The notes beneath the pieces were generated by a model that was given only the letters and a program-made list of their open reading frames with translations, was not told the origin of the DNA and did not search any database. 61,944 nucleotides of DNA from a virus. Positions 3,952-57,839 of this stretch are shown here, in pieces (the first letter of the stretch is position 1; each line of letters opens with the position of its first letter). The translations under genes were made by a program, and so were the position numbers. Location of the stretch: IMG/VR virus record IMGVR_UViG_3300036768_001294, positions 1 through 61,944 of that record. The stretch is one strand, 5' to 3'.

Positions 3952-3959
3952 GATTCAGC

Positions 3960-6212: not shown

Positions 6213-6221
6213 GAGGAGAAT

Positions 6222-6539
6222 ATGCGAATATACCTTATTCTTATCATGTTAGTCAGTTATTGGTTATGTGCTCATGAAGTCATGGCTGCTAATTATTCAT
6301 ACCAAAGCACTCCAGAGGAGGATCAGGCTATCAGAGTGAAAGCCGATGAAGACGGCGTAAGTCCACAAGAAGCTTTCTCAAGAATCGTAGGGTCAGCATT
6401 AGGACAAATTTTGGATAATCTGAAAAGAAACAATGAGCAAAGAATGATGAATGATGCAAGAGCATGTACGGATCGTGGAGGTATATTCCAAGTTGATACA
6501 AGGAAAGGAGATGCTCAATGGCAGTGTATCGAGCATTAA
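6222..6539 (+). CDS. Small exported protein
   Basis: 105 residues with AGGAGGAG directly before the ATG. The N-terminus 'MRIYLILIMLVSYWLCAHEVMAA' is a signal peptide with a plausible cut after VMA. The mature part is helical and charged, with two late cysteines (ARACTDRGG and WQCIEH) that could form a disulphide in the periplasm. It follows the secreted fibre-like gene by nine bases and overlaps the next exported protein, so the three probably act outside the cytoplasm. Family not recognised. Confidence 0.6.
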   Translation: MRIYLILIMLVSYWLCAHEVMAANYSYQSTPEEDQAIRVKADEDGVSPQEAFSRIVGSALGQILDNLKRNNEQRMMNDARACTDRGGIFQVDTRKGDAQWQCIEH

Positions 6540-6781
6540 AACAAGCCTTTAGAGTGGGTTGTATTGGACTAGTTATGCTCACGGCAGCTTATGCACAAGA
6601 TTGTCGCGATGAACTTGCCCAAGCTCGGTCAATGATTGAAGTGCTGCGTGCTAGTCGAGATCAGTCTGAACATCTACTCTCGCAAATGTACAGCCGTCTA
6701 CAACAGGCATTGAGAGAGTTAGAATCCCTCAAGCACAAGCCCGCTGACGAGTCATCCACCCCACAAGAGCAACCCAAATAG
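6518..6781 (+). CDS. Small exported coiled-coil protein, possibly spanin-like
   Basis: 87 residues. AAAGGAG lies just before ATG 6518, inside the end of the preceding gene. A hydrophobic segment at residues 13-25 ends in AYAQ, a signal-peptidase I type site. Residues 28-72 form a heptad-rich helix (ELAQARSMIEVLRASRDQSEHLLSQ...), and the tail is Pro/Glu-rich. Overlapping pairs of an exported protein and a coiled-coil protein are typical of spanins, but no lipobox is clear. Spanin is therefore only a possibility. Confidence 0.5.
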   Translation: MAVYRALKQAFRVGCIGLVMLTAAYAQDCRDELAQARSMIEVLRASRDQSEHLLSQMYSRLQQALRELESLKHKPADESSTPQEQPK

Positions 6782-6793
6782 GTGGAAGTCACT

Positions 6794-9238: not shown

Positions 9239-9668
9239 TTCCGCTGTCGAGTTGCTTATCGGGACAGCCCTTATTGAAAGCAACTTAATGCTTCTCAAGC
9301 AAGGGCTAGCGAATCGATACGACGGCATGGGTGTAGCGCTGGGCCTTTATCAAATCGAGCCGGCCACACATCATGATATTTGGCTGAATTACTTGGCGGC
9401 TCGTCCCAATTTCAGCACGTATATTTCAGCTTCTGGCAAGAGGCCGGATTCGGACTTGATTACCGACCTTAAATATGCCACCAAGATTGCCAGAACGATT
9501 TATTATCGTTCACCATTGCCACTTCCCCAGGCCAATGACATTGAGGGACTCGCTAAATACTGGAAGAAAGTTTACAACACAAAAGCCGGGAAAGGTGATG
9601 CAAAAAGATTTGTAGAATTATACTCTTCACTACATCGTCTTTCCTCGCCTTCAGGAGACGGCAAATGA
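9165..9668 (+). CDS. Lysozyme-like muramidase / transglycosylase
   Basis: ATG 9165 is chosen because AAAGGAG at 9151-9157 lies seven bases before it; the open frame extends to a TTG at 9129. The ~167-residue product carries 'LLIGTALIESN', with the catalytic-type Glu of SLT lysozyme folds, followed by 'GLYQIEPATHHDIW', and near the C-terminus 'GLAKYWKKVYNTKAGKG'. This pattern is found in phage lysozyme-like proteins and virion transglycosylases. It cuts peptidoglycan, either for lysis or for entry. There is no signal peptide, so a holin or virion delivery would be needed. Confidence 0.7.
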   Translation: MLCLDHFRRFVVTPALMEVPGYYSDSAVELLIGTALIESNLMLLKQGLANRYDGMGVALGLYQIEPATHHDIWLNYLAARPNFSTYISASGKRPDSDLITDLKYATKIARTIYYRSPLPLPQANDIEGLAKYWKKVYNTKAGKGDAKRFVELYSSLHRLSSPSGDGK

Positions 9669-10582
9669 GAATTCTTGTCACAGGTGGCATGGGAACAGTT
9701 GGCCGGCCGCTTGTCAAAGAACTTAAAATTCGCGGCCATGAAGTGTTTGCATGTGATTTAGCACATAGCTACCAGGATTGGTATCGGCGCTGCGATATCA
9801 GTGAGTTTCATGAACTCATTGATCTATTCGATAATTTGCCACCAATTGAACTGGTATATCATGCCGCAGCCGAATTTGGCCGACATAATGGCGAGCGATA
9901 CTCAGCGCGTCTCTGGAAAACCAACGTCGTTGGCACCAAACATATGCTGCGATTGCAGCGTGAGCTTGGCTTCAGAATGGTATTTTTCTCTAGCTCAGAG
10001 ATTTATGGTGACTACGACGGCGTGATGCACGAAGATGTTCCAGTCAAGTACCCCATAAGACTGCTGAACGATTATGCCATGACAAAATGGGTCTCGGAAA
10101 TGATGATTATGAACGAAACCGAGGCATGGGGAAACGAAATCGTTAGGGTTAGGCTCTTTAATACCTATGGGCCCGGCGAATATTTCACGCCTTTTCGATC
10201 AGTAATTGCCAGGTTTTGCTACTATGCAATCCATGGCAGGCCTTATGTTGTCTACCGAAATCACAAGCGCTCTTTCATTTATATTGATGATGCCGTAAAC
10301 ACCCTGGCAAATATCACTGATCATTTCAAGCCTGGTGAGGTTTATAACATAGGGAGTACGAAACTATACAGCATTGAGGAATTGTCTGATAAGATCCTGC
10401 GGTTAACAGGCAGGCATGAAAATCTTGCACATTTTCAGAATCAGGAATTACTCACGACTAAACAGAAAATTGTTGACACCGTCAGAGCCAGTGAAGATCT
10501 CGATCACAAGATTACTGTTGATATCGATGAAGGATTAACAAGAACCATAGAATGGATGAGGCAAGTTTATCATGAAGCCTGA
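9665..10582 (+). CDS. NAD-dependent sugar epimerase/dehydratase (extended SDR)
   Basis: 305 residues, overlapping the previous stop by four bases (ATGA). The Rossmann fingerprint TGGMGTVG is at residues 6-13. 'VYHAAAEFGRHNGE' and 'FFSSSEIYGD' follow, and the catalytic YxxxK is YAMTK. 'RLFNTYGPGEYFTPFRSVIARF' and 'RSFIYIDDAV' are typical of UDP-glucose 4-epimerase and dTDP-glucose dehydratase relatives. It makes or interconverts a nucleotide sugar in the cytoplasm. It starts the sugar island and is translationally coupled to the glycosyltransferase downstream. Confidence 0.88.
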   Translation: MRILVTGGMGTVGRPLVKELKIRGHEVFACDLAHSYQDWYRRCDISEFHELIDLFDNLPPIELVYHAAAEFGRHNGERYSARLWKTNVVGTKHMLRLQRELGFRMVFFSSSEIYGDYDGVMHEDVPVKYPIRLLNDYAMTKWVSEMMIMNETEAWGNEIVRVRLFNTYGPGEYFTPFRSVIARFCYYAIHGRPYVVYRNHKRSFIYIDDAVNTLANITDHFKPGEVYNIGSTKLYSIEELSDKILRLTGRHENLAHFQNQELLTTKQKIVDTVRASEDLDHKITVDIDEGLTRTIEWMRQVYHEA

Positions 10583-11775: not shown

Positions 11776-12346
11776 TGTCGATGGCGTTCTGGCCAATTGC
11801 AATTCGGTCTATGCAGAGCTAGCTGCGGAGAAAGTCAATAATTATATGCTACCGATGCATCCCCTAGAATCCCCTGGATGGTTTACCATGCATGAGCGAT
11901 TAGGGGATGATGCTCCAAAGATTTTCAATTATGTCTGGGAAAAGCCCGATGTCTTGGACGCTGCTGTCCCACTCTTCACGCCAGAGCAGGCCGTGAAGAT
12001 CAATCACATTCAGTCTTTAGCCAGCACCTACTTTGTGACCAATCGTGGGCCCGGATCTAAACGTGTGACCGAGGTATGGCTTGAGCGGCATCTTCGATTC
12101 AGGGCGACGGTCATCGTCAGCGCGCGTAAAGACCTTGTAGCTGAGGCCATTGGAGCTGATTTCTCAATCGAAGATCATGCGCCCAATGCCATTATGATTG
12201 CCATGGCCAGTCCAAGGACTCGGTCATATTTGCTCCATCGTCCTTACAATGAGATTGATGCCAAGCGCTTAGGAGCTTGCATTCAAATCGTGCTGAGCTT
12301 GGATACATTCCTCGACGATGTCTTGAGAGCGATTTCCAATGATTAA
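11747..12346 (+). CDS. HAD-family 5'(3')-deoxyribonucleotidase-like phosphatase
   Basis: 199 residues, overlapping the diphosphohydrolase by 29 bases. HAD motif I is 'VVMFDVDGVLAN' with Asp nucleophile and DxD. Motif II is 'YFVTNRG', and motif IV is 'DFSIEDHAPNAI'. The N-terminal cap region includes 'GWF..HERLGDDAPKIFNYVWEKPDVLDAAVPLF', similar to NT5C-type deoxynucleotidases. It likely dephosphorylates deoxynucleoside monophosphates. With the preceding gene it forms a two-step route from dNTP to deoxynucleoside. Confidence 0.75.
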   Translation: MASKKVVMFDVDGVLANCNSVYAELAAEKVNNYMLPMHPLESPGWFTMHERLGDDAPKIFNYVWEKPDVLDAAVPLFTPEQAVKINHIQSLASTYFVTNRGPGSKRVTEVWLERHLRFRATVIVSARKDLVAEAIGADFSIEDHAPNAIMIAMASPRTRSYLLHRPYNEIDAKRLGACIQIVLSLDTFLDDVLRAISND

Positions 12347-14405
12347 TATTTGGCTGGCTCAAGTAAATAATGCTTATGGCCATAGCCTTTTTCTTCCCTA
12401 CTCCGTAGGTTGCCTAGAGGCATATGCTCGGGCCCAGGAAGACCTTGCTCAATGCATATTCAAGGGCTACATCTTCAGAAGGGAGCCCCTTGACGATATC
12501 ATTAAGCGAATCGAGACTTCCGGGGACATCGACATCTTGGCAATCTCATGCTATCTCTGGAATTGGGAGTATTCCAAAGCACTCGGCACTGCTGTCAAAG
12601 AGCAGTGGCCCAATTGTCTCGTAATTATTGGTGGTCCACAGCTTCCAAGCCTTCCGCCCTCATGCCAATTATCAATCAAAGGCGAAGCTTCAGAAGCTTT
12701 GGCCCATGGTGGAGTATTTGATGAGTTCCCGTCGGCGGACATCGCGGTCTATGGTGAAGGGGAGCTTGCTTTTGCAGAAATCCTACGAGCAGTATCAGGA
12801 TTTCACAGAGGCAGAGGAATCGAGATTAAATCAGGAATCTTTGAGAAGTTACGAACGATTACAGGATTGGCTATTCGAACCGACAGAGGCACCTATTTTA
12901 CAGGAGAACCTCAGCGCATCCGAGATCTTTCCCAGCTCCCCTCCCCCTATCTCACAGGATGCTTCGATTCCCTCCTCGCTCATCGCGCCTATGACGAGGA
13001 AACGGGTGCTGAAACTCGCATAGACTGGCAAGCCAGTCTCGAAAGCAATCGTGGTTGTCCGTACATGTGCTCATTTTGTGCATGGGGTCCAGAATCACTT
13101 GCAAAGTTTTTCCAGTTTCCCTTAGAGCGCATTTATCGCGAAATTGAGTGGATGGGGCAGCAGCATATTCGATACCTGTATTCATGCGATGCCAATTTTG
13201 GGATTATCAAACGCGACGTTGATATCGCCAATATCCTAGCTTTTACCAAACAACTTTATGGCTATCCTAAGGAGTTTCGGGCTTGCACCGCCAAAAATAG
13301 CAATGATCAAGTCTTTGAAATCTCTAAAATCCTGCACGAAGCCGGCATGTCCAAAGGCGCCACACTGAGTTTTCAGAGCGTTGACCCCCACACCCTAGAT
13401 ATCATCAAACGAAAGAATATTAAGATTGATAATTTCGCCGAATTTCTTAAGCGTTACAGAGATCACGGCATTGCTACGTATACTGAACTCATTATAGGGT
13501 TACCGGGAGAAACAAGACAATCATTTGAGGCCGGGATAAACAGCATTCTTGATGCTGGCAAGCATGATGGGCTTAATATTTATCTTTGTCAAGTTTTACC
13601 CCAAACTGAATTCGATGATCCAGAGTACCGTAAAATTCACGGTATAATTACTGTCCGTTCACCTCTACTTCTGCAGCACAGCACTCCTATCAACGATCCC
13701 CACCAAGAATACAACGAGATTGTCATTGGCACCTCCAGCATGCCAACGAATATTTGGCGAGACACATACATGTTTTCGTGGGCTGTGCAGGCATTTCACG
13801 CGCTAGGTCTGACACGCTATCTCGCCATATTCTGTCGTCATGAGCTAGGCATGGCTTATTCCACATTCTATAACGCCCTGCTAGAGTGGATGCAAGCGAC
13901 CCCAAATTCCAATCTTGGCGATGAGTATCGCAATGTGTTATCGATTTGCGAGAGTGGAATGCGTGGAGGTGATTGGGGTCAAATTGATTATCGGTTTGGA
14001 AATATCATCTGGCCGACTGAAGAACTGACATTTCTGAGATTAGTGACTGATTATCAGAATACGTACAAAGAGATTGCCGTCTTCTTTGTGAATCTTCTTC
14101 GCCAGTGCTCTAGCCAATATATCTCAAGTATAGTCGTGAATCTTATTGATTATCAGAAAAATCTTCTTATTAGGCCAGATGATGATGGGCAAAGATCACT
14201 TGACATGGAAATCAACTATCATGAATACTTCTCAAAGATCTTAGATGATAAGTCGATGAAACCAATCATCAAGCCTGAATCGCTCATCATTATTTCCGCC
14301 AGATCTTATAAAGATTTGGAAGAATATGCTCGGCTGGTCGTTTGGTATGGACGAAAAGGCGGGAATTTTCTTCACAAGAATATTATTTGTTATTCGAAGG
14401 ACTGA
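12339..14405 (+). CDS. B12-binding domain radical SAM enzyme (second of two)
   Basis: 688 residues, overlapping the previous gene by eight bases. The N-terminal cobalamin-binding domain has 'PYSVGCLEAYAR', 'CLVIIGGPQLPSLPP' and 'DIAVYGEGELAFAEIL'. The radical SAM motif CxxxCxxC is at C240, C244 and C247 (GCPYMCSFC). 'ATLSFQSVDPHTLDIIKR' and 'YTELIIGLPGETRQSFEAG' are the barrel signatures of this class. The C-terminal ~250 residues are helical and of unknown function. It is only distantly similar to the first enzyme, so they probably perform different reactions. Substrate unknown; position suggests modification of a sugar, lipid or virion peptide. Confidence 0.85.
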   Translation: MINIWLAQVNNAYGHSLFLPYSVGCLEAYARAQEDLAQCIFKGYIFRREPLDDIIKRIETSGDIDILAISCYLWNWEYSKALGTAVKEQWPNCLVIIGGPQLPSLPPSCQLSIKGEASEALAHGGVFDEFPSADIAVYGEGELAFAEILRAVSGFHRGRGIEIKSGIFEKLRTITGLAIRTDRGTYFTGEPQRIRDLSQLPSPYLTGCFDSLLAHRAYDEETGAETRIDWQASLESNRGCPYMCSFCAWGPESLAKFFQFPLERIYREIEWMGQQHIRYLYSCDANFGIIKRDVDIANILAFTKQLYGYPKEFRACTAKNSNDQVFEISKILHEAGMSKGATLSFQSVDPHTLDIIKRKNIKIDNFAEFLKRYRDHGIATYTELIIGLPGETRQSFEAGINSILDAGKHDGLNIYLCQVLPQTEFDDPEYRKIHGIITVRSPLLLQHSTPINDPHQEYNEIVIGTSSMPTNIWRDTYMFSWAVQAFHALGLTRYLAIFCRHELGMAYSTFYNALLEWMQATPNSNLGDEYRNVLSICESGMRGGDWGQIDYRFGNIIWPTEELTFLRLVTDYQNTYKEIAVFFVNLLRQCSSQYISSIVVNLIDYQKNLLIRPDDDGQRSLDMEINYHEYFSKILDDKSMKPIIKPESLIIISARSYKDLEEYARLVVWYGRKGGNFLHKNIICYSKD

Positions 14406-17496: not shown

Positions 17497-18032
17497 TCGA
17501 AGTGACGTGTCAGCTTGATGAAGAGACCGAACGAAAGCTCTTCGAAAATCCGCGGCTCTTAGCTCGCTTCCGAGCCGCAGTCCAGCGTGCCTGCGATCAA
17601 CTAGAGGCAAATGTTAAGAAACGGGCGCCGAAGGCTACTGGAGATTTTCTCAAATCTATCGACTGTACCGTTCACGAATTTGGTCATCCATATCGCATCG
17701 TAGGCCGAGTGTACTCAGTTCACCCAGCAGCCGATGCCATTGAGTTTGGAGCCGGGCCACATGTTGTGCCGACTCGGGCAATCTTGCGCTGGATGCAAGC
17801 TGTTAATATGCCCATAGGCAAAGGATTAACCGTGCAAGAGGTTGCCGAACGTATTCAGAAGAGAATTGCTGAACGCGGTCTGAAACCGCACTTTACTTTT
17901 ACAGATGCTTATCAGGATGCCGTTGGCATTTTTAAGAGTGAGCTTGATCCAATCTTAGATAGTATTGACGGACATGCAGAATACTCAGCTGAATTGAGTT
18001 CAAGTGGCTCATGGCAACTACCTTGGGAATAG
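17490..18032 (+). CDS. HK97-gp10-like tail-completion / neck protein
   Basis: 180 residues, overlapping the glycosyltransferase by seven bases. 'ACDQLEANVKKRAPKATGDFLKSIDCTV' followed by 'RIVGRVYSVHPAADAIEFGAGPHVVPTRAILRWMQ' matches the HK97-gp10/Mu-gpG pattern (P.TG.L..SI ... A..IEFGT.PH..P). These proteins sit between head and tail or at the tail completion ring. It shows that the sugar genes are truly inside the morphogenesis operon. A minus-strand gene at 52.3 kb shares the same VEVG..AHV.P motif. Confidence 0.75.
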   Translation: MLIEVTCQLDEETERKLFENPRLLARFRAAVQRACDQLEANVKKRAPKATGDFLKSIDCTVHEFGHPYRIVGRVYSVHPAADAIEFGAGPHVVPTRAILRWMQAVNMPIGKGLTVQEVAERIQKRIAERGLKPHFTFTDAYQDAVGIFKSELDPILDSIDGHAEYSAELSSSGSWQLPWE

Positions 18033-18075
18033 CATCAATTCCCTAACTTTGGTACTCTGGGTTATGAGGGATGCG

Positions 18076-19164
18076 ATGGAAATTGTCATATTTGTCGGCG
18101 CTAGGCCGGGATATATCAAATCATGGTCTGTCTATAAGGCTTTTACGCAGCACGGAATATTTCCAACAGTTGTGGCCACTGGACAACATCATGACATTCT
18201 CAAGCAGCACCAGGAAATATTCTTGATGCCAGTCGATCATTGGTTGATAACAGAACAGCCACATTATGATTTGGCTGACCTTTATGGACAGATCTATAAT
18301 AAATCTTTTAAGTATTTGAAAGAACATTGTCCCAAAGCTGTATTTGTCAATGGTGACACAACAAGTGCTTTGGCCGCAGCGCAAGCAGCGTTTCATTTAA
18401 ATATTCCTGTAGCTCATATTGAGTCGGGACTGAGATCATTTGATCTAGAAAACCCATACCCCGAAGAATTTAATAGAATTACGATAGATGCTTTAAGCAC
18501 TTGGCTATTTCCTCCAACGGCATTAGCCGAGAGAAATTGCCGGCTTATTAATTCGCATGCATCTTCTGTTATAACCGGAAACACAGTCATAGATGCTTTG
18601 ATGGAGGGACTAAAGCTTCTTCCGCAAAATGAAATTACCTATGCCTCTAAGTATCTGCTCATAGATCTACATCGTCGTGAATTATCGGCAAATGCATTAA
18701 GTGAAATCATGGAGAAGATATTCCTGGCTGCCAAAGATCATGACTATATGGTAATTTGGCCGGCGCATCCCAATCCCAAGATTCAAGCAGAGGCTATGAA
18801 ATGGAAAGATAATGATACCTTTCTGATCATAGAGCCTCAAAATTACTTACAGTTTATTCGTCTTATGAGAGATGCCGACCTCATCCTCACAGACAGTGGT
18901 GGCGTTGTTGAAGAAGCCATTACATTAGGCACGCCAACGCTTCAGATCAGGAAGGCTACCGATAGACAGGAAGCTATTTTGCATCAGTGCTCATGGTTAA
19001 CGGGACTAGATGCCGATGAAGTTTACAGATTCTTGATTGGTGCCATTCAATATGCAGAAGAATGGCATAAATGGATTGAACGAGTCAAGAATCCTTATGG
19101 TAACGGACATGCTGGAGAAAAGATCGTTAAGTCTTTTCTAGGGAGATTGTCGCATGGCAAGTGA
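18076..19164 (+). CDS. wecB: UDP-N-acetylglucosamine 2-epimerase
   Basis: About 362 residues. ATG 18076 is chosen because family members start with a short 'MKI...GTRP..IK' strand, here 'MEIVIFVGARPGYIKSWSVYKAF'; GTG 18004 lies inside the tail gene. 'FVNGDTTSALAAAQAAFHLNIPVAHIESGLRSFD...YPEEFNRITID', 'VITGNTVIDAL' and 'LILTDSGGVVEEAITLGTPTLQIR' are the substrate and UDP-binding motifs. It converts UDP-GlcNAc to UDP-ManNAc in the cytoplasm, a precursor of surface polymers such as enterobacterial common antigen or teichoic acids. The gene lies between two virion genes. Confidence 0.9.
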   Translation: MEIVIFVGARPGYIKSWSVYKAFTQHGIFPTVVATGQHHDILKQHQEIFLMPVDHWLITEQPHYDLADLYGQIYNKSFKYLKEHCPKAVFVNGDTTSALAAAQAAFHLNIPVAHIESGLRSFDLENPYPEEFNRITIDALSTWLFPPTALAERNCRLINSHASSVITGNTVIDALMEGLKLLPQNEITYASKYLLIDLHRRELSANALSEIMEKIFLAAKDHDYMVIWPAHPNPKIQAEAMKWKDNDTFLIIEPQNYLQFIRLMRDADLILTDSGGVVEEAITLGTPTLQIRKATDRQEAILHQCSWLTGLDADEVYRFLIGAIQYAEEWHKWIERVKNPYGNGHAGEKIVKSFLGRLSHGK

Positions 19165-38405: not shown

Positions 38406-39252
38406 AATCGCCTCTCATTTTGATAGGCCACCCCCGTTTCGGAAGTGGGAGTTTTCGTGTTCCTTGTTGCCCAGAATTACAATATCGTAATCCGATAACA
38501 TAAGTGCTGGATTTATAAGGGGGCAATTTCAAAAAAAATAAAGTGCCGAGCTGCGAGGCCACATCTGGCGCGGGTTTGCAGGCTTTTTAGGCCCTAGACG
38601 AGGCAGCTGGTGGGGCTAGAGCGACCAGCGGTTAGGGCAAAGCCAGGCAGCATAGGCGATGACGTGGGGAAAGAGTTGCGGGCCCGCGCGGGGCCGGCGT
38701 CGGTGGGGCCGCGTCGCCCCCGGGCATGCTGCGTGCAGGGGGCGGGCGCGGGGGCCGCCGAGGGCGCGTGGGCGGTTGGGGGCGGGGCGAGCGCCTGGGC
38801 GGGCCTGGCGGCTGCGGCACGCATCATGCCCTGGGGGCTGCGGGCGTGGGGCGGCGGCACGGGCACGAGATAGCCGCTGGGCCGATCCGGCGGGTGAGTC
38901 CTGGGGCCGTGGGAGACCGCCAAGCCCCGCCAAACCTGGGCGTCCCGGGAGTGTGGCGGGAGTTGGCCATAGTTTCATCCCACCCACTCCCACCCTAAAC
39001 ACACCAGCTCAAGCGGCCAGAGCCGGCCAAGCCGCGTGGCTGGCCGGTTCCGTATACCCCCCGGGGGTATCGAGGCCAAGCCAGACGGGCGCGTCCGGGG
39101 GGTCTCACCAGCGTCTGGCAGTTTGGTGGTGAGAAGTGTCGGTGCGCCGGGGCGCTCGGGCATGCCGCTGGCAGGCGCTGCGCGCTGGCCAGCGTCACGC
39201 CCTTCGCTTCGGGGCGTGGAGGCGCCGGGCTGGTCTCCGCGGGCGTTGGGCT

Positions 39253-39366
39253 GGGCCGTGGGTCCACTCCGTGCTTCCCGCTGCACGGCGCGTCCCGCCC
39301 CTGGGAGCGGGTTGGTGGGGCCGTGGGTCTACCCAGTGCTTCTCGCCCAGCTCGGTGCCCCGCCCC
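39253..39366. repeat. Tandem repeat, period 65, in the GC-rich block
   Basis: GGGCCGTGGGTC begins copies at 39253 and 39318. Similarity runs about 49 bases to a shared CCCGCCCC end (39294-39301 and 39359-39366) and also covers roughly 14 bases before each start. The differences are mostly substitutions and short indels, as expected for an old duplication. Confidence 0.6.
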
Positions 39367-39402
39367 CCAATGGCTCGCTCTGCCTAGGGGCCTCTGCTGC
39401 TG

Positions 39403-39464
39403 GGGCCTGTTCAGGTTGCCACCCACGCTTCTTGGGCCTGTTCGGGTTGTCACGGCTGCTTCTT
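39403..39464. repeat. Tandem repeat, period 31, in the GC-rich block
   Basis: GGGCCTGTTC begins copies at 39403 and 39434. By eye 25 of 31 positions match, ending GCTTCTT in both. It lies directly before the AT-rich stretch 39516-39530 (TAAATATATATATCT) and the palindromes CTCCCCCTGGGGGAG (39485-39500 region) and TCCCCCGGGGGGA. Confidence 0.6.
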
Positions 39465-39946
39465 GGCTCCGCGCTATATACCTCCCTCCCCCTGGGGGAG
39501 TGAGAACCTGAACTAAATATATATATCTCCCCCGGGGGGATCTTTGTACCCCCCCTCCCCCCTCAGATATAGTTGTCTATTCCTCAAAATTTGAAGATTG
39601 CCTAATTGCAGCCACGTTTTCACCAACCCCCTAATTTTTCTGCACGAGGCTTGGGCGTTCCCCCGCTCGGGCGTGTGTGGTGGGCATAGGCGCTGGTGGC
39701 AAGCGGAGCCGTGGAGAAGGTCTGGCCCGAGCGGGGTCCGGCCACTCGGCAGAGCCCGAGCCCGCTTCGCGGTCTCGGCCCTACGGGCGAGTGTCCGTAA
39801 CGCCTCCGAACAAATCAGGGCAAGTTCCACTGCTGGGTGAGAAGAAGCGAAAGCAGGAGACGATCCCCCCTAAATCCCCCGCTGGGGGACTTTGGAGAAG
39901 AAAGAGCCCGCCCCCTCCCTGAGCTGAGGGGAATATACGCGGGGAA

Positions 39947-44664: not shown

Positions 44665-44898
44665 ATGTATACGGTCTATAATGATGTTGGTGGTATAATC
44701 CATCGAGGTTGCTCCTTAGAGCGTGCCATGCAGGTTGCTATCAACGATGATACGGCCGAGCCATATATTCATTCGGCCAGAGGTAAGCGGCCGGTCGTTC
44801 TTGACCAGAGAGGACAGCCTCATCTCGGAAATTATGGTGAGTCGCTTGATGACTTTCGTGACCGCCTATATGCGACCGACCAGGCATCATATTTCTGA
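44665..44898 (+). CDS. 'ARGKRP' family protein, short version
   Basis: 77 residues, with GGTGGAG upstream. 'MYTVYNDVGGIIHRGCSLERAMQVAI...IHSARGKRPVVLDQRGQPHLGNYGESLDDFRDRLY' is a clear paralogue of the N-terminal part of the gene at 57393 ('MYLVYNIAGGLIYKGKSLQKAMDFAM...ITARGKRPVAKYHGIPRLGEFGEDYDSFLDRLE'). Function unknown. The pair brackets the early operon. Confidence 0.6.
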   Translation: MYTVYNDVGGIIHRGCSLERAMQVAINDDTAEPYIHSARGKRPVVLDQRGQPHLGNYGESLDDFRDRLYATDQASYF

Positions 44899-46100: not shown

Positions 46101-46424
46101 ATGAAGCACATTAATCTTACGGTGAAATTCCTACGACAGGCATACAAACGGGCTAAGTCTATTCCAGGTTATGGATGGTGGTATCTCGTAGAGGATGAAC
46201 GGTTTGGAGGGTGCACGTATGAGTGTCCCTTCCATGTAGTATCCGGTGCTACATCCGAGAGTGAGGCTGCCGATGCGTTTCAGGTTCAGATCTGCTGTAT
46301 CGATGGCTTCCTCTCCGGATGGGATGGCGAGGATAAGATCGTCTTTCCCGATGAGTGTGAGCGGTGCTTTCGGCTTGGCAAGAAGCTGCGCGCCATACTT
46401 CATCCCGTACCAATCGATGGCTGA
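46101..46424 (+). CDS. GWD-Cys family protein, copy 1
   Basis: 107 residues. First of three related genes (also 46638 and 47023) sharing 'MKHI......LR..Y', 'Y.CP', 'I.[C]..[F]...F..GWD' and a C-terminal 'C.RC..LG.KL...L.P'. Here: 'YECPFHVVSG', 'CCIDGFLSGWDGEDK', 'DECERCFRLGKKLRAILHP'. Invariant cysteines suggest a shared zinc or iron site. Function unknown. Confidence 0.6.
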   Translation: MKHINLTVKFLRQAYKRAKSIPGYGWWYLVEDERFGGCTYECPFHVVSGATSESEAADAFQVQICCIDGFLSGWDGEDKIVFPDECERCFRLGKKLRAILHPVPIDG

Positions 46425-46441: not shown

Positions 46442-46651
46442 ATGAAACGTGACAAAAATTCCCGAGCCCATCCACGATGTGAGGTGCATCCAGAGCGCCG
46501 CGGTTATCCCTTGGTGGGATACTGCCGTGATGGTGGTGGTGTCTTATATTTCTGTGATTCCTGTACAGCGCAAGCGCTACATAGTACTGTTGCGGATGTT
46601 CGCGAAGCTCGTCGGCTTCAGAAAGAGGCTTTAAACGATGAAGCATATTGA
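46442..46651 (+). CDS. Small Cys/His protein
   Basis: ATG 46442 with GGGAG upstream; the longer frame from 46364 overlaps the preceding gene. 69 residues: 'HPRCEVHPERRGYPLVGYCRDGGGVLYFCDSCTAQALH', a zinc-finger-like array, followed by a charged helix 'VREARRLQKEAL'. It lies between copies 1 and 2 of the GWD-Cys family. Confidence 0.55.
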   Translation: MKRDKNSRAHPRCEVHPERRGYPLVGYCRDGGGVLYFCDSCTAQALHSTVADVREARRLQKEALNDEAY

Positions 46652-46961
46652 ATGCTCCATTCAGGAGCTCCGTTCATTGTACAAACACCACAATGTGCGC
46701 CCATGCAAGGGCGCTTGGTTTCACTTCGATGTCGAAGATGGATTGATTTATCATTGCCCCTTATATCTTATGTATGGGCTGAATCAGCCGTCAGAGATTC
46801 GACGTATCTACGGTATTCCAGTGGATTGCAGCTGGAGTTTTGTGAGAGGCTGGGACAACTCACCAGTTACGATTCTGTCATGCCCACAGTGCTATGAGCT
46901 TGGCCAGAAGCTGAGCCGGAAATTGCGTCCTAAGCATTTTGAGCAGGAGGAAGAATTTTAA
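46638..46961 (+). CDS. GWD-Cys family protein, copy 2
   Basis: 107 residues, overlapping the previous gene by 14 bases. 'MKHIECSIQELRSLYKHH', 'LIYHCPLYLMYG', 'CSWSFVRGWDNSP' and 'CPQCYELGQKLSRKLRPKHFE' match copies 1 and 3. It is closer to copy 3 than to copy 1 ('RKLRPK.FE', 'C.[W/Y]SF..GWD'). Confidence 0.6.
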   Translation: MKHIECSIQELRSLYKHHNVRPCKGAWFHFDVEDGLIYHCPLYLMYGLNQPSEIRRIYGIPVDCSWSFVRGWDNSPVTILSCPQCYELGQKLSRKLRPKHFEQEEEF

Positions 46962-47022: not shown

Positions 47023-47331
47023 ATGGAACATGTAGAGTTTGATGAAGATGATTTGAAAGCCTTATATAAGGCAGAAAATGCACTACCGTGCTGCGGCGTC
47101 TGGCATATGAGTGAGGGTGGATTGCAATATCACTGTCCGCTGTCACTGAAGTATCGTGACGCCTCAGCCATTCGAGTGGCACAGAAGTCGCACATTCCGC
47201 TGGAATGTGTGTACTCTTTCATAGGAGGGTGGGATGGTATAACTTCACAAGAGGAGCATGAATGCTCGCGGTGTTTCAATCTCGGTGATCAACTACACAG
47301 GAAACTTAAACCAAAGTATTTTGAGGAGTGA
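47023..47331 (+). CDS. GWD-Cys family protein, copy 3
   Basis: 102 residues. 'MEHVEFDEDDLKALYKAENALPCCGVWH', 'LQYHCPLSLKYRD', 'IPLECVYSFIGGWDGI' and 'CSRCFNLGDQLHRKLKPKYFEE'. It is translated just ahead of ssb (three-base gap), so the family may act on DNA metabolism or the host replisome; this is context only. Confidence 0.6.
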   Translation: MEHVEFDEDDLKALYKAENALPCCGVWHMSEGGLQYHCPLSLKYRDASAIRVAQKSHIPLECVYSFIGGWDGITSQEEHECSRCFNLGDQLHRKLKPKYFEE

Positions 47332-49945: not shown

Positions 49946-51451
49946 ATGGACATCAGACAGCAATTCAAGGCTGCCAGAAATCGAAGTGTGCCACTTGTCG
50001 GGATTGTCAGTCCCGATGCTGCAGCAACAATTTCCTGGATTCAAAAATCCTTGCCAAATGAGACGCCCATCACATTATGGGATTCAGCTAGAGGTCTTCT
50101 CGGCGCTAATAATCAAGGCGCTGAGAAAATCCTTGCCATAACGGGCATTGACAATGCCCTTGAATTGCGAAATCTAACGAGCGATCCCGTCAATTCGATG
50201 GATATCGTCTCGAAACTCCCAGAGCAATCCATTAGCATCTTCTTAAATTTACAAGCCCATTGGCATGCTCCAGAAGTTGCGCAGGCTGTGTGGAACCTGC
50301 GAGATCTCTTTAAGTCTGACTTTAGAACATGCGTGATAATTGGTCCCGAGCTGAAACCACCGCTTGTGCTCCATCACGATCTCGTTATTCTTGATGAACC
50401 ACTGCCCTCTGACGATGAGATTGCGCACATTGCACTCTCAATGTATGAGGCTGGTGGTCTTCCCACTCCAGATGAAACCGTCTTGCGGCGAATTTGCGAG
50501 ACTGTTCGTGGGCTCTCCGCGTTTGCCGCAGAGCAAGCCATTGCCCTGAGCATGAATGGCAAGGGCATGAATTTTCGTCTGCTTTGGCACCATAAGCGCA
50601 AGCAGATTGAAAATACGCCCGGATTGAAAGTGCATCTAGGTGGTGAGACCTTTCAGGATCTAGCCGGCCTAGACAGCGCCAAACACTTTATCAGCGGCCT
50701 CTTCCGCGGACCAAATCCTCCACGGGCTATTGTGTACGTCGAAGAAATTGAGAAAATGTTTGCAGGCTCCTCCAGCGATTTCGCTGGCGATGGTGGTGTG
50801 GCAAAGGATGCTCTTCAGACAATTCTCACCGAAATGGAGGAGAACGATTGGTCTGGCATGATTCTTGTAGGTCCACCAGGATCAGGAAAGAGCCTCATTT
50901 CGCGGGCGGTGGGTGCAACATTTGATGTGCCAACCATTGCCTTTGATTTGGGGGCGACTCGCCAATCATTGGTTGGTGCCTCGGAGCAAAATATTCGTGC
51001 GTGTTTCCGAGTGATTCAAGCGGTGGCGCAGAAAGGTGGAGCCTTTTGGATTGCCACTTGCAATAAACATGAAGTCCTACCGCCGGAGCTTCGGCGTCGG
51101 TTTCGTTACGGCATTTGGTACACGGGCATGCCGGATGAGCAGGAATTACAGGCTATCTGGAATTTGCAGCGTGCAAAATATCATATTCCAGAGAGTGATC
51201 CTATGCCAACAGGCATCCGTTACACCGGAGCCGATGTCCGCAACATTTGTGAGATTGCCTGGCGTTTGCAAATTCCGCTTAAGCAAGCTGCACAGTATAT
51301 TGTGCCAATTGCTATTTCCGATCCGCAGTCGATTTTGCGGCTTGAGGAAAGTGCCGATGGACGATTCCTCAATGCCAGTCATCCTGGTGTCTATCGGCGA
51401 TCAAAAGTTGAGAATGTGGAGCGACCGCGAAGATTAGCGATGGAGGGTTGA
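49946..51451 (+). CDS. Ycf46-like AAA+ ATPase with permuted Walker motifs
   Basis: 501 residues, with GGAGGTGGG upstream. Residues 95-165 ('SIFLNLQAHWHAPEVAQAVWNLRDLF', 'CVIIGPELKPPLVLHHDLVILDEPLPSDDEI') match the N-terminal domain of Ycf46-type ATPases. The AAA+ core is out of order: a Walker-B-like 'AIVYVEEIEKMF' (261-272) and 'DALQTILTEMEEND' come before the P-loop 'GPPGSGKS' (309-316). These are followed by 'FDLGATRQSLVGASEQNIR', sensor 1 'FWIATCNK' (N373) and 'LPPELRRRF' (Arg finger). In ordinary family members Walker B lies after the P-loop. All parts are present, so it is likely active. It lies near a DUF1257 gene. Confidence 0.8.
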   Translation: MDIRQQFKAARNRSVPLVGIVSPDAAATISWIQKSLPNETPITLWDSARGLLGANNQGAEKILAITGIDNALELRNLTSDPVNSMDIVSKLPEQSISIFLNLQAHWHAPEVAQAVWNLRDLFKSDFRTCVIIGPELKPPLVLHHDLVILDEPLPSDDEIAHIALSMYEAGGLPTPDETVLRRICETVRGLSAFAAEQAIALSMNGKGMNFRLLWHHKRKQIENTPGLKVHLGGETFQDLAGLDSAKHFISGLFRGPNPPRAIVYVEEIEKMFAGSSSDFAGDGGVAKDALQTILTEMEENDWSGMILVGPPGSGKSLISRAVGATFDVPTIAFDLGATRQSLVGASEQNIRACFRVIQAVAQKGGAFWIATCNKHEVLPPELRRRFRYGIWYTGMPDEQELQAIWNLQRAKYHIPESDPMPTGIRYTGADVRNICEIAWRLQIPLKQAAQYIVPIAISDPQSILRLEESADGRFLNASHPGVYRRSKVENVERPRRLAMEG

Positions 51452-51452
51452 G

Positions 51453-51899
51453 ATGAGGAAACACTTGCCTACCAAGATGGAAATTCTTGCCGACCTCTGC
51501 CGAGTAATGGAGGCGACCAAGTCTCCTCAATGGCCAAATGGTGATACGAGGTCATCTGTGTATTTTGCGAAAGGCTCTTATAGCCGTTATGCCGTCTATC
51601 ATGTCTTCACAAAAGGTTGGGAGCAAGTGCTTAAATCTCTCAACAAAGAGTTGGAGACTGTAGGCAAGGCAACTTTAAGAAATTTACGGGAGCGTGAGGA
51701 GATTGGCTCAGTCCCAAAACGTGAGTATGTTTATAAACCTAGGACTTGCTTGGCATGTGGAAAAGTGTTTAAATCATTTGGCCCGGAAAACCGGAAATGT
51801 CAGCGCTGCAAGACTCTAAGGCCTCACTTAGAGGCGGCTGGTGAAGAAGAATATCATCTCTATATACCATTTATCAGCCACGATAGCATGGAGATTTGA
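51453..51899 (+). CDS. Zinc-ribbon protein
   Basis: 148 residues starting one base after the ATPase stop. An alpha/beta N-terminal domain ('ADLCRVMEATKSPQWPNGDTRSSVYFAKGSYSRYAVYHVFTKGWEQVLKSLN') is followed by 'RTCLACGKVFKSFGPENRKCQRCKTLRP', a classical CxxC-x13-CxxC ribbon similar to ribbons in host and phage transcription-associated proteins. Probably nucleic-acid binding. Confidence 0.6.
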   Translation: MRKHLPTKMEILADLCRVMEATKSPQWPNGDTRSSVYFAKGSYSRYAVYHVFTKGWEQVLKSLNKELETVGKATLRNLREREEIGSVPKREYVYKPRTCLACGKVFKSFGPENRKCQRCKTLRPHLEAAGEEEYHLYIPFISHDSMEI

Positions 51900-51916
51900 A
51901 GTTTTGGGGGTTAGGT

Positions 51917-52303
51917 ATGGAAAGGACCGTGTATAAGCTTGTCTTTGTATCTGGTAGCCGTCTAGAGTCATACGCAGCGATTGCTGGAGCCAGAGTCCGT
52001 TATCGAGTTGGCCGTTGGGTCACAGCGCGGAAACATTTGGCTGAGCGCGGATATCATCTCTTGGTCTTTGATTCGGTTGAAAATTTACAAGATTTTATTA
52101 CGGCATATAATCTGGATGAAACGCTAGTCCATGGTTATCTGGCGCAGGCAGATGGAATTATCGACAATCTTCCACCGCCTGCCTTGTTTTACAAAGTCCG
52201 TAAGGACGAGTATGACATTTTGCCGACACCGGGAGCGAAGTGGCCGAAAGGGACGCTTATGGCCAAGCGAGTTAAATTAATCAAGCGCATTTTTGGGGGG
52301 TAA
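51917..52303 (+). CDS. Hypothetical protein
   Basis: ATG 51917 is preferred over TTG 51896. 128 residues: 'VYKLVFVSGSRLESYAAIAGARVRYRVGRWVTARKHLAERGYHLLVFDSVENLQDFI' has the look of a small alpha/beta domain that may have an SH3-like or ADP-ribosyl-binding fold, and the C-terminus is basic (KGTLMAKRVKLIKRIF). It converges with the minus-strand gene at 52314. Confidence 0.55.
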   Translation: MERTVYKLVFVSGSRLESYAAIAGARVRYRVGRWVTARKHLAERGYHLLVFDSVENLQDFITAYNLDETLVHGYLAQADGIIDNLPPPALFYKVRKDEYDILPTPGAKWPKGTLMAKRVKLIKRIFGG

Positions 52304-52313
52304 CTTGGCGTTG

Positions 52314-53060
52314 CTAGATGCCATCAAATCCATTGCCTTCGCTGTCCACGGTGCCATCCCTCGTGCTAGCATAACGTATTTGATAAGGCTCCCAAAATTC
52401 AGTAGGTAGCGCAGCATCACCGATATCCGCATGTCTCATACTCAACTCAAATTGGATCATACCATTATAAAACATTGATTTTGGTGGTGTCCCATCGCTT
52501 GCAATTTCATGCTGTAACGACCATTCATTCCACCCGGGACCGGGATGACCTAGCGACCACCGGCGTAAATTCTGTGCGGGTGCAACATGTGCCTTACTAC
52601 CAACCTCAACTGGCTTTCCATATGGTACATTTTTTGTATGAATGACATTTGTGAAATATATGTAATCATACATTTCGAAATAGAAAGTCCAATAAGTCCT
52701 GACTTCGCCATTATAACCATAAAAGGAATCATAAACTAGCCATGATCGTTCAGTCCATCCAGAGGACCTAAAAAGTGGATAATCAGCTAATCGCTTTATG
52801 CCAGCGCTAAGCCTACCAGTAAAGAAAGGTGTTTGTCCTTTAATTTTTTTAATAAGAAGCTCTGTCATCCACTCAAAGTGAGTTAAGGCTTTCTGATAGC
52901 TAACTTCGCGTGCCGCCGTGTCGTAGCCGGTTATAACTTTCCATCTAAAAAGATTATCTTGCATTGGTTCTTCAACATATGCCTTAGCAATGGCCCACAC
53001 ATCATAACGAAAGCAAATCATGACGGCTGGGGCAGTATAGTTAAGTAGTACCGTAGACAT
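52314..53060 (-). CDS. Lone minus-strand gene, HK97-gp10-like motif
   Basis: About 248 residues from the ATG at 53060; a TTG at 53102 is possible. It stands alone on the minus strand inside the early operon. 'FFTGRLSAGIKRLADY' and 'VPYGKPVEVGSKAHVAPAQNLRRWS' match the pattern of gp10-type tail-completion proteins and echo 'ADAIEFGAGPHVVPTRAILRWMQ' in the gene at 17490. The N-terminal region ('VLLNYTAPAVMICFRYDVWAIAKAYVEEP') is hydrophobic. A sigma70-like promoter precedes it. It may be a moron or a relocated morphogenesis gene. Confidence 0.6.
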   Translation of the reverse strand: MSTVLLNYTAPAVMICFRYDVWAIAKAYVEEPMQDNLFRWKVITGYDTAAREVSYQKALTHFEWMTELLIKKIKGQTPFFTGRLSAGIKRLADYPLFRSSGWTERSWLVYDSFYGYNGEVRTYWTFYFEMYDYIYFTNVIHTKNVPYGKPVEVGSKAHVAPAQNLRRWSLGHPGPGWNEWSLQHEIASDGTPPKSMFYNGMIQFELSMRHADIGDAALPTEFWEPYQIRYASTRDGTVDSEGNGFDGI

Positions 53061-53089
53061 AGCTTTTACAGTTCGCTCCTCATCTGAGT

Positions 53090-53115
53090 GTAGCTCGCGC
53101 AACGGCGCGAGAAGC
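53090..53115. promoter_or_regulatory. Hairpin in the leader of the minus-strand gene
   Basis: GTAGCT-CGCGC-AACG-GCGCG-AG-AAGCTAC forms a stem with the perfect inner helix CTCGCGC/GCGCGAG and a four-base loop. It lies between the promoter and the start of the minus-strand gene and has no T-run, so it may control translation or mRNA stability. Confidence 0.55.
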
Positions 53116-53158
53116 TACGCGGCTTTAGCCGAAGTAGAGTATTACAAGTATGTTGTCA

Positions 53159-53186
53159 ATTATACATCACGGTGCATTTCACACAA
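53159..53186 (-). promoter_or_regulatory. Sigma70-like promoter, minus strand
   Basis: Read on the minus strand: TTGTGT, a 16-base spacer and a perfect TATAAT preceded by TG. It points at the lone minus-strand gene about 100 bases away and would allow expression independent of phage operons. Confidence 0.6.
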
Positions 53187-53225
53187 GCATCGTCTCCTAA
53201 AAGGATTAGTAAAGGAGGGATTTTT

Positions 53226-53636
53226 ATGAGCCACATGGCACAAGTGAAGACGAAGATTCGTGATGAGACAGCTATTCTTGCTGCGGCAAAAGCTTTGGGA
53301 ATTCCCGTTGAACGAAACAAGGGAGCCCGCTTTTTTATGGGGACTTCTGAGATTTGTGATTTTGTTCTGAATCTCAGAGGTCGGTATGACTTGGGATTAA
53401 AACGTCAGCCTGATGGGACATATAGCTTCATTGCTGATGAAGAGCTTATCAACCCCGAGCGTTATTGCAGTCGTAGTGTCGAGGGAACAAACATGATTGG
53501 CAAGGGAGCCGGGAGATTCAAGCAGGAATATGCCTACGCAGTCTTGCAAGCCCAGGCGCGTAGGAAAGGTCAACGCCTTATGCGACAGGATCTTCCCAAT
53601 GGACGGATTCGCGTTATGATCACAGGTGGTCGATGA
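53226..53636 (+). CDS. DUF1257 (Ycf35-like) protein
   Basis: ATG 53226 with AAAGGAGGG upstream. 136 residues: 'MSHMAQVKTKIRDETAILAAAKALGI' and 'RYDLGLKRQPDGTYSFIADEEL', plus the C-terminal 'FKQEYAYAVLQAQARRKG', match DUF1257, whose plastid and cyanobacterial members are Ycf35. Function unknown in all hosts. The next but one gene is DUF2997, its usual partner, and a Ycf46-like ATPase lies 2 kb upstream. Confidence 0.8.
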   Translation: MSHMAQVKTKIRDETAILAAAKALGIPVERNKGARFFMGTSEICDFVLNLRGRYDLGLKRQPDGTYSFIADEELINPERYCSRSVEGTNMIGKGAGRFKQEYAYAVLQAQARRKGQRLMRQDLPNGRIRVMITGGR

Positions 53637-53667
53637 AAATCTTTTGAAATTCTTACAGGAGATTGGC

Positions 53668-53871
53668 ATGAAGCCAAGGCGAATTATTCAAAGCCGAAGC
53701 GGTGAGAGATTTATTGAATCAGATCTGGAGAATTGGGAAGAACAGTACGAGGCATGGCTTTCATCGAAAAAACCTTGCCCTCTACCCAGAAACCATCCAG
53801 CATTTCTAGCCCCAGAGAAATTTGGCTGTCATTACATTGAGGAGGAAACAATTGAAACGGATCGAGATTGA
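53668..53871 (+). CDS. Hypothetical small protein
   Basis: ATG 53668 with CAGGAG seven bases upstream; the frame opens earlier at GTG 53626. 67 residues: 'RRIIQSRSGERFIESDLENWEEQYEAWLSSKKPCPLPRNHPAFLAPEKFGCHYIEEETIE'. Acidic, no motif. It sits between DUF1257 and DUF2997 and overlaps the latter by 20 bases. Confidence 0.5.
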   Translation: MKPRRIIQSRSGERFIESDLENWEEQYEAWLSSKKPCPLPRNHPAFLAPEKFGCHYIEEETIETDRD

Positions 53872-54037
53872 GATCGATGAGCAGGGCGAAGTTTCCGTTG
53901 AAGTGAGTGGTGCTTATGGCCAGGAGTGCGAGGCCATGACGGCGGATATTGAGAAAGCCTTGGGCACCGTTTCCAGCCGTAAGCGCAAGAGTGAATATTA
54001 TCGAGCGCAGCGCCAACAACAACATATTCAGCAGTGA
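53852..54037 (+). CDS. DUF2997 protein
   Basis: TTG 53852 has GAGGAGG six bases upstream. 61 residues: 'KRIEIEIDEQGEVSVEVSGAYGQECEAMTADIEKALGTVSSRKRKSEYY' is a clear DUF2997 pattern ('I.I.I..DG.V..EV.G..G..C...T..IE.ALG.V..R..T.EYY'). DUF2997 commonly accompanies DUF1257 in cyanobacteria and other bacteria. Function unknown. Confidence 0.8.
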   Translation: MKRIEIEIDEQGEVSVEVSGAYGQECEAMTADIEKALGTVSSRKRKSEYYRAQRQQQHIQQ

Positions 54038-54044
54038 GGGAAAC

Positions 54045-54347
54045 ATGGAAAACATTCATATCGAGATTACTTCAGACGGTACGTGTATGGCTATTTGGAA
54101 AGATGAGCATAACCTAGATGAGTTAGGTGATCTTGAAGTCACTCGTCTATCTGATGTCGAATTTGATAACGAAGCTCAGGGATGGAGAGTGCACTTCAGG
54201 AATGGTGTAACCTTACCTGGTGTCTATAAAGAGCGTATTAGAGCTCTGGCTGCCGAGGTGAAATACGTTGAGGAACATCTTAGTGAATTTGCAGATTGGT
54301 TGCTGAATCGATCTACACCGATTATGTACGATCCAAGCATGTCCTAA
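54045..54347 (+). CDS. Hypothetical acidic protein
   Basis: 100 residues, with GAGGGA before ATG 54045. 'IHIEITSDGTCMAIWKDEHNLDELGDLEVTRLSDVEFDNEAQGWRVHFRNGVTLPGVYKERIRALAAEVKYVEEHL' looks like a short beta barrel followed by helices. Similar small acidic proteins are common in phage early regions as host-takeover factors. No family recognised. Confidence 0.55.
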   Translation: MENIHIEITSDGTCMAIWKDEHNLDELGDLEVTRLSDVEFDNEAQGWRVHFRNGVTLPGVYKERIRALAAEVKYVEEHLSEFADWLLNRSTPIMYDPSMS

Positions 54348-54375
54348 GATGTATAGAAGAGTGGAGGTACGGACG

Positions 54376-55290
54376 ATGGAAGAGCGCGTTAATCCGTTTG
54401 ATAATAGTCTGTGTCTTAGCATTAACATTCATAAGTTCGGTACGACTCGCAAGGTAAGACCGGATCTAGTGGAGACCGATGCAGATAAGAGACTTGTGAA
54501 AATTAGCAAGAAGATTTTTGACTCAAATGCGATGCAGCAGATCAATATGATCGATACGCAAATCCGGGATTACCTGAAGCGTTATACAATTGTTAATGCG
54601 CTTATGAAGCCGGGGATCTATTTGGTGCCACTTGATCATGTCACAGCTGTCGAGGAATTTATTCGGCAGAAGCTAGAAGATCGTGGCTATTGGATCTACC
54701 AGCTGGGTGAGGAATATGAGCTAGTCAAGGAGGAATTTCGTCAGAGGCTGGGTTCACTTTATAACGAATCCGACTATCCATCGGCTGAACGAGTCAAAGC
54801 TAAATTTAGTATTACTTATGAATGGTTAGCCATGGATGTTCCCCAGAAGCTGCAGTACATTAATCGTAACATTTGGCTGAGCGAGCAGGAGAAAGCGCAG
54901 CAGAAAATTCAAGTTGTTGCTGAGCGTATTGAGCAAATTCTGACGGCTTCGATGAGTGAGCTGATCAATCATCTCATTGATCGACTTACGGATCGAGAAG
55001 ATGGTAGGCGAAAGAAGTTTGCGAGCAACATGATCGAGCGCGCCCGAGAATTCTTTGAGACCTTCCAGGCGAAGAATATCATTGGCTCGGAAACGCTTAA
55101 TGAATTAGCTGCTCGTGGGAAACTTCTTCTGGATGGTATTGATGTAGAATCCCTTCGCGATCAAGCCCATCTACGAGAGAGCGTTCGTCAAGGATTTGAG
55201 AAAATTCGGGAGGCCATGAGCTCGATGGTCGTCGCGGCTCCAAGTCGTGCCTTGCAGTTAGAAGATGACGACTCCGACTCTCTCTTCTAG
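54376..55290 (+). CDS. DUF3150-like helical protein
   Basis: ATG 54376 has GGAGG about nine bases upstream. 304 residues: 'CLSINIHKFGTTRKVRPDLVETDADKRLVKISKKIFD ... IDTQIRDYLKRYTI ... KPGIYLVPLDHVTAVEEFI' then long helices ('QQKIQVVAERIEQILTASMSELINHLIDRLTDREDGRRKKFASNMIERAREFFETFQ') and an acidic tail. This pattern is like DUF3150 proteins, which in phages often lie near MoxR-type AAA+ genes. The family call is tentative. A strong terminator follows. Confidence 0.5.
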   Translation: MEERVNPFDNSLCLSINIHKFGTTRKVRPDLVETDADKRLVKISKKIFDSNAMQQINMIDTQIRDYLKRYTIVNALMKPGIYLVPLDHVTAVEEFIRQKLEDRGYWIYQLGEEYELVKEEFRQRLGSLYNESDYPSAERVKAKFSITYEWLAMDVPQKLQYINRNIWLSEQEKAQQKIQVVAERIEQILTASMSELINHLIDRLTDREDGRRKKFASNMIERAREFFETFQAKNIIGSETLNELAARGKLLLDGIDVESLRDQAHLRESVRQGFEKIREAMSSMVVAAPSRALQLEDDDSDSLF

Positions 55291-57377: not shown

Positions 57378-57392
57378 AAGATGGAGATGACA

Positions 57393-57839
57393 ATGTACCT
57401 TGTGTACAACATAGCTGGTGGTCTTATTTACAAGGGCAAATCGCTGCAGAAAGCCATGGATTTTGCCATGGGTTTTAGGGCTGAACATTATATCATCACA
57501 GCCCGTGGAAAACGCCCCGTGGCCAAGTACCATGGCATACCGCGTTTAGGGGAATTTGGGGAAGATTATGATAGCTTCTTAGATCGATTGGAGAAGGCAG
57601 AACCCCCTCAGGAGGACAATATGAACCGAGATGAGCAATACATCGATGCCGTGCTGGCAAAAGTGAAAGCACTATGGATGCAGCATCCCTGGTTTCGGTT
57701 GGGCATCCTGCTTCACATTTTTTCCCACGATAAGACTAGTGGCCCTGTTGCCTATCTGGATGATTGTCATTTCTTCGATGATCAGGCCGAGTACGAGAAA
57801 CTTGTTCGCCACATTGATGGAAAAGGAGAGAACGCATGA
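57393..57839 (+). CDS. 'ARGKRP' protein fused to a second small domain
   Basis: ATG 57393 has GGAG six bases upstream. 148 residues. The first ~70 are a paralogue of the gene at 44665. The rest ('RDEQYIDAVLAKVKALWMQHPWFRLGILLHIFSHDKT') has the 'W..HP..RLG.LL' pattern of an independent phage family. A strong internal site (GGAGG, five bases, ATG 57621) could start the second domain separately, giving 72 residues. It is therefore a fusion with a possible internal start. Confidence 0.6.
   Translation: MYLVYNIAGGLIYKGKSLQKAMDFAMGFRAEHYIITARGKRPVAKYHGIPRLGEFGEDYDSFLDRLEKAEPPQEDNMNRDEQYIDAVLAKVKALWMQHPWFRLGILLHIFSHDKTSGPVAYLDDCHFFDDQAEYEKLVRHIDGKGENA

Follow-up and report, generated by a model that had tools for sequence, protein, structure and literature searches.

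A phage gene cassette combining an AAA+ ATPase of permuted motif order with DUF1257, DUF2997 and DUF3150-like proteins

Analysis of a 61,944-nucleotide stretch of viral DNA (IMG/VR record IMGVR_UViG_3300036768_001294, positions 1-61,944; hereafter the window) revealed an AAA+ ATPase whose catalytic core, as judged from sequence, is permuted, the Walker B block lying ahead of the Walker A block. The ATPase gene (49946..51451, plus strand, 501 amino acids) forms a cassette on one strand with genes for DUF1257, DUF2997 and DUF3150-like proteins, and the exchanged order was found in at least 105 phage proteins. Recognition of AAA+ proteins relies on a fixed motif order, and DUF1257 and DUF2997 are unsolved families kept in cyanobacteria and plastids. 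We lean slightly towards the view that these genes represent a new type of phage remodelling machine, a natural family of circularly permuted AAA+ motors that occurs in phages alone and is provided with a dedicated DUF1257-DUF2997-DUF3150 co-chaperone set. If true, this would be an architecture new to a superfamily in which the order of motifs was treated as fixed.

The permuted core of the phage ATPase

The window ATPase possesses the motifs of an AAA protein: Walker A, Walker B, sensor 1 and an arginine finger are all present and are conserved in 104 aligned phage proteins. The succession Walker A, Walker B, sensor 1 was not found, as Walker B lies about 40-45 residues ahead of Walker A. In the window protein YVEEIEK (Walker B, residues 264-270) is followed by GPPGSGKS (Walker A, 309-316) and then by ATCN (sensor 1, 370-373). 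On the plus strand, the N-terminal domain with its linker to the core (residues 1-250, resembling p97 D1 and P-loop-less) occupies 49946..50695; the Walker B block with the acidic pair E266-E267 (residues ~257-300) occupies 50714..50845; the Walker A block, in which GPPGSGKS is followed by an SLVG pore-loop-like stretch (residues ~301-362), occupies 50846..51031; and sensor 1 with N373, together with the arginine-finger-like R384-R385, occupies 51053..51100. Because the core is permuted, the match to PF00004 (52.6 bits) covers only the Walker A half of the profile (positions 1-55 of 131). Since the protein is AAA+ by motifs and fold, yet lies outside the fixed motif order, we regard it as a permuted variant of AAA+.

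A total of 105 non-redundant phage proteins (<80% identity) make up the permuted set, which was enlarged by scans with permuted-specific segments; as the scans were seeded with permuted-specific patterns, protein numbers give no ratio of permuted to canonical forms. Residue counts and the profile rest on an alignment of 104 of these proteins (A5). The first virus loci split cleanly, with Walker B either preceding Walker A by 45-48 residues or following it at about 54. The isolate phage Tunturi_3 encodes an ATPase of the same permuted order with 33% identity to the window ATPase, whereas the canonical order is seen in relatives from Rhizobium phage RHph_I4, Aeromonas phage HJ05 and Rhodobacter phage RcDurkin. 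K315, G344, N373 and R385 are invariant in the 104 A5 rows, position 266 is aspartic or glutamic acid in all of them, and E267 is found in 103.

Comparison of the A5 profile with solved structures revealed that the D2 domain of CDC48 (6chs) is covered almost gap-free with the order of the blocks exchanged: chain residues 528-585 correspond to profile positions 297-354, residues 585-627 to 255-294 and residues 630-722 to 356-443. The canonical RHph_I4 protein was matched in four abutting pieces, in the order 10-250, 298-356, 259-297 and 360-432. Canonical relatives in five cellular genomes were likewise matched as separate pieces and, where both the Walker A piece and the next one matched, some 35-45 residues, approximately one Walker B block in length, separate the two. 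The Tunturi_3 ATPase, which is outside the A5 profile, was matched over positions 1-481 in a single piece (550 bits, 1e-166). No Walker-B-like motif was found behind Walker A in the 104 A5 rows, which argues that the Walker B block was moved and not copied. These alignments place the beta3-alpha3 (Walker B) block ahead of, instead of behind, the beta1-alpha1-beta2-alpha2 (Walker A) block, and they indicate that sensor 1, the arginine residue and the lid were unmoved by this swap. They also assign the catalytic domain to the Ycf46-like/CDC48-like AAA group; the name Ycf46 itself is presumptive.

In a tree of 45 permuted and 57 canonical rows, built after the blocks had been restored to a common order, all permuted rows fall on one side of one branch (Shimodaira-Hasegawa-like approximate likelihood ratio test 100), and the permutation traces to a single origin within the sampled tree. 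The permuted members identified are all from virus records. No permuted copy was found in 396 and 398 cellular genomes of two phyla (E 1e-40, three candidates scored per genome), a weak negative; the best 80 of at least 455 confirmed ATPase relatives in the genome scan were all canonical. In the open-access literature searched, no description of an AAA+ core with permuted motifs was met; the permuted methylases of jumbo-phage and Dnd papers and the permuted peptidase of a TRADD-N paper are irrelevant to it. As a separate observation, a canonical relative (L037, IMG/VR 3300009702_001278, about 3690-6783) is apparently split at the P-loop by an intein-like sequence that ends in SHN immediately ahead of TGKS.

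The AlphaFold2 model built with the A5 alignment (mean predicted local distance difference test score, pLDDT, 94; predicted template modelling score 0.86) forms the Walker B strand (261-265), with two helices between it and the Walker A strand. Residues 1-484 of the model align to residues 210-764 of p97, covering D1 and D2 (VIA Z 18.6, 400 residues, 4.9 A), and the AAA+ fold was recovered in matches to p97 D2, Vps4 and spastin (200-213 residues, 2.5-3.0 A). An N-terminal P-loop (GxxxxGK[ST]) is present in one A5 row and absent from the other 103. Residues 1 to about 215 look like a degenerate D1-like tier, and the ATPase is predicted to be a p97-like two-tier protein with an inactive D1-like tier and an active permuted D2 tier; its N-terminal domain is homologous to the N-domain of widespread canonical bacterial relatives. 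A first-pass annotation of the window had called the ATPase Ycf46-like, which holds for the family and fails for this permuted core; the family resembles a two-tier AAA+ whose first tier is degenerate. Domain libraries split or overlook the permuted family, Pfam detecting the Walker A half only. A conserved block swap in which the catalytic residues persist amounts to a natural experiment, showing which links within the AAA+ core are important.

Partner genes and their co-occurrence with the ATPase

The AAA+ ATPase, DUF1257 and DUF2997 proteins that the first-pass annotation placed within 4 kb are present at 49946-51451, 53226-53636 and 53840-54037. The annotation read these as a three-gene set and overlooked the DUF3150 partner, in these phages the more constant one; the cassette should be extended to 55290, so that F5 (54042-54347) and the DUF3150-like gene (54349-55290) are included. 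The DUF1257 (Ycf35-type) protein (53226..53636, plus strand, 136 amino acids; AlphaFold2 pLDDT 87) scored 32.5-33.0 bits against PF06868 (cut-off 22.2), and 38 of 66 aligned phage relatives match PF06868 independently; its start is likely the ATG at 53226, giving the 'MSH' start common to relatives. The DUF2997 protein (53840..54037, plus strand, about 65-71 amino acids) scored 60.7 bits against PF11211 (cut-off 24.1), which is also matched by 45 of 48 relatives. F5, a small conserved protein (54042..54347, plus strand), was delimited with an iterated hidden Markov model (HMM) and has no Pfam match. The divergent DUF3150-like protein (54349..55290, plus strand, 313 amino acids) has no PF11348 match itself; 19 of its 55 aligned relatives match PF11348 (best 1e-19), and an iterated profile joins them. 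Sequence searches of solved structures with the DUF1257, DUF2997 and DUF3150 proteins returned only E above 0.08. By profile, gp96 of Tunturi_3 (L003:11696-12655) is a full-length DUF3150-family protein (4e-96), and its annotation as an HNH endonuclease is probably wrong; in the same phage gp103 is the ATPase, and gp102 and gp101 are the DUF genes.

Partners were counted with locally iterated profiles at 105 non-redundant permuted loci. The DUF3150 family was found at 102 loci, DUF1257 at 96, DUF2997 at 91 and F5 at 52, and 88 loci carry DUF3150, DUF1257 and DUF2997 together; DUF3150 is the most constant partner of the ATPase in permuted phages, above either DUF1257 or DUF2997. All 690 family hits share the strand of the ATPase, with none on the opposite strand. 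Two gene orders predominate, ATPase-1257-2997-(F5)-DUF3150 (57 loci) and ATPase-DUF3150-1257-2997-(F5) (21 loci). Among 50,697 phage records DUF1257 was matched in five, all five with an ATPase relative, and an ATPase relative was found in 12 in total. Co-occurrence, the check proposed in the first-pass annotation, is far above chance on these counts (5/5 DUF1257 records; 96/105 and 91/105 loci). DUF1257 and DUF2997 are fused as one gene in three lineages (L038/L039, L196 and L197), which suggests that they act together and that the two proteins interact. At 115 loci of canonical relatives, drawn from bacteria, archaea, plasmids and other phages, DUF2997 was found 54 times and DUF1257 25 times; hence the core set is very likely older than the permutation. 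The conserved and portable nature claimed for the ATPase-DUF1257-DUF2997 set is borne out by its presence in phages, plasmids, bacteria and archaea.

Two further genes lie between the ATPase and DUF1257 genes. The first (51453..51899, plus strand) encodes a protein of 148 amino acids with Cys motifs, matched by phrog_13335 (E 1.8e-7) and only weakly by zinc-ribbon profiles; it is lineage-specific and its membership of the cassette is uncertain. The second (52314-53102, minus strand) is a 262-aa gene inserted within the cassette in the opposite orientation; a family search with its protein gave no match. The gene is largely kept in a close relative, L002 (about 76% DNA identity), from which 51896-52303 is absent.

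Elsewhere in the window, positions 38500-39900 have a guanine-cytosine content of about 0.70-0.72 against about 0.50 around them and contain only implausible overlapping open reading frames on both strands; they represent either foreign or chimeric DNA or non-coding DNA of an unusual kind. Three similar proteins of ~105 amino acids are encoded in tandem at 46101-46424, 46638-46961 and 47023-47331, just upstream of an SSB-like gene, and make up a local gene family. A stretch of ~65 residues (MY.VYN..GG.I..G.SL..AM) is common to the genes at 44665-44898 and 57381-57839, at separate sites of the early region. On reading of the translations, two B12/radical-SAM-like genes, an NAD-dependent epimerase-like gene and a UDP-GlcNAc 2-epimerase-like gene (6782-8149, 12339-14405, 9665-10582 and 18004-19164) lie, with glycosyltransferase-like genes, among structural genes.

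Proposed function and alternative explanations

We hold with moderate confidence that the cassette is a phage protein-remodelling machine in which the permuted AAA+ ATPase works with DUF1257, DUF2997 and DUF3150 partners. The ATPase would form a hexamer, a ring-shaped remodeller with inactive and active tiers, and would pull or remodel a protein substrate through a pore bearing the conserved SLVG loop. DUF1257 and DUF2997, fused in some genomes, may form one adaptor or regulator, and DUF3150 may act as a co-chaperone, by analogy with the probable role of its relatives in MoxR-vWA operons. On Burkholderiales plasmids a DUF3150-family homologue (HMM E 6e-36, 1e-39) occurs between the genes for a MoxR-type ATPase (AAA_5) and a metallopeptidase-vWA protein (DUF2201); this position indicates an AAA+ chaperone with co-chaperones. 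As DUF3150 is present both in the permuted cassette and in MoxR-vWA operons, it appears to serve two distinct AAA+ machines as an accessory. A protein complex of the phage or of the host is the probable target, and gene position weakly favours replication or recombination complexes over tail assembly. The proposal makes DUF1257 and DUF2997 parts of a small, defined phage machine open to purification and deletion.

Two results weigh against a remodelling machine of this composition. DUF1257 has no clear structural match (Foldseek E 0.18; best Z 6.3, below the safe level), and its top fold rows (Z about 6), which are KA1/AMPK adenylate-sensor domains, are a lead only. Furthermore, two permuted loci carry no partner, an absence that is ambiguous because IMG/VR records may be fragments.

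A remodeller dedicated to replication or recombination, loading, unloading or clearing proteins such as helicase, SSB or recombinase at phage forks, is a tentative alternative. From the translations, genes surrounding the window cassette are SSB-like, RuvC-like, YqaJ-type exonuclease-like and DnaB-like, and in RHph_I4 and RcDurkin the cassette is just upstream of a DnaB-type helicase gene, in RHph_I4 also of a DNA polymerase gene. Weak profile matches to phage clamp loaders reflect general AAA similarity. However, the argument is one of gene neighbourhood alone, no DNA-binding feature was seen, and the replication annotation within 8 kb in Tunturi_3 consists of a small ATP-dependent DNA ligase only.

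A role as virion assembly chaperone, with DUF3150 as a common adaptor for structural proteins, is somewhat more doubtful still. It would parallel phage MoxR-vWA proteins with an N-terminal metallopeptidase, which have been proposed as a chaperone-cochaperone pair with a virion role (PMC7824862); the plasmid DUF3150-like proteins between MoxR-type AAA+ and metallopeptidase-vWA genes fit this explanation, as does the location of a canonical relative on a Treponema plasmid, next to a phage baseplate V gene. The window cassette, however, is distant from tail genes, and a DUF3150 relative on a Burkholderia plasmid lies beside type IV secretion genes and not virion genes.

Maturation or quality control of Fe-S or radical-SAM cofactors, in which the AAA+ ATPase and the DUF proteins service Fe-S proteins, is unlikely. 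Cells offer two points for it: cyanobacterial cluster g consists of duf2997-ycf35-fed7, fed7 encoding a ferredoxin (PMC4284462), and, of 85 canonical loci from cells or plasmids, 45 encode a NrdG-like radical SAM protein (Fer4_12 3.8e-36) close to the ATPase. Nevertheless, a radical SAM gene is nearby in only five permuted loci, redundant loci included, and there is none in the window cassette; the phages carry DUF3150 instead. Gastranaerophilales and actinobacteria (for example L120, L091 and L058) possess a conserved operon of the canonical ATPase, DUF2997 and a NrdG-like radical SAM protein, in which one gene may be a very divergent DUF1257.

A defence or anti-defence system based on an IetA-like AAA+ ATPase is more unlikely again. 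The best curated name match is indeed the anti-phage ATPase IetA/IteA (NCBIfam 1.2e-9, PADLOC 1.1e-10), but it covers the Walker A block alone and scores far under the curated cut-off (37.8 of 510 bits), PADLOC gave no match for the other genes scanned and the IetS protease partner was not seen; we judged the matches in both libraries to be general AAA similarity. Lastly, the view that the permuted order stems from misassembly or misannotation, or from two genes taken for a single one, has nothing found in its favour, is refuted at the sequence level and is practically dismissed, as this order occurs in 105 non-redundant open frames from many samples, including an isolate phage, that form a single clade with invariant catalytic residues.

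Comparison with known systems

Comparison of the cassette with described systems revealed partial likeness to several. IetA of the IetAS anti-phage system shares similarity in the AAA Walker A block. MoxR/vWA operons share a DUF3150-like partner with the cassette; however, their ATPase is of the AAA_5 type with normal motif order, whereas the window ATPase is of the PF00004 type, and a vWA gene was not recognised among conserved neighbours of the cassette, which lacks the vWA and metallopeptidase domains. CDC48/p97 shares with the window ATPase the two-tier fold and the positions of pore loop and arginine finger, while the window ATPase differs in its permuted D2, its degenerate D1-like tier, the absence of the p97 N domain and an identity of only about 17%.

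Cyanobacterial cluster g has adjacent DUF2997 and DUF1257 genes in common with the cassette and differs in its ferredoxin partner and in having the ATPase outside the cluster. The Ycf46-like AAA ATPases (PHROG 8638) share the N-terminal domain, the AAA motifs, the lid and the DUF1257/DUF2997 neighbours; unlike the window ATPase they keep Walker A before Walker B, and their cellular operons often contain radical SAM genes and rarely DUF3150. Cyanobacteria pair DUF2997-DUF1257 with fed7, and in many other cells the partner of the set is a NrdG-like radical SAM protein where the phages carry DUF3150; accordingly, the phage system represents a variant and no simple copy.

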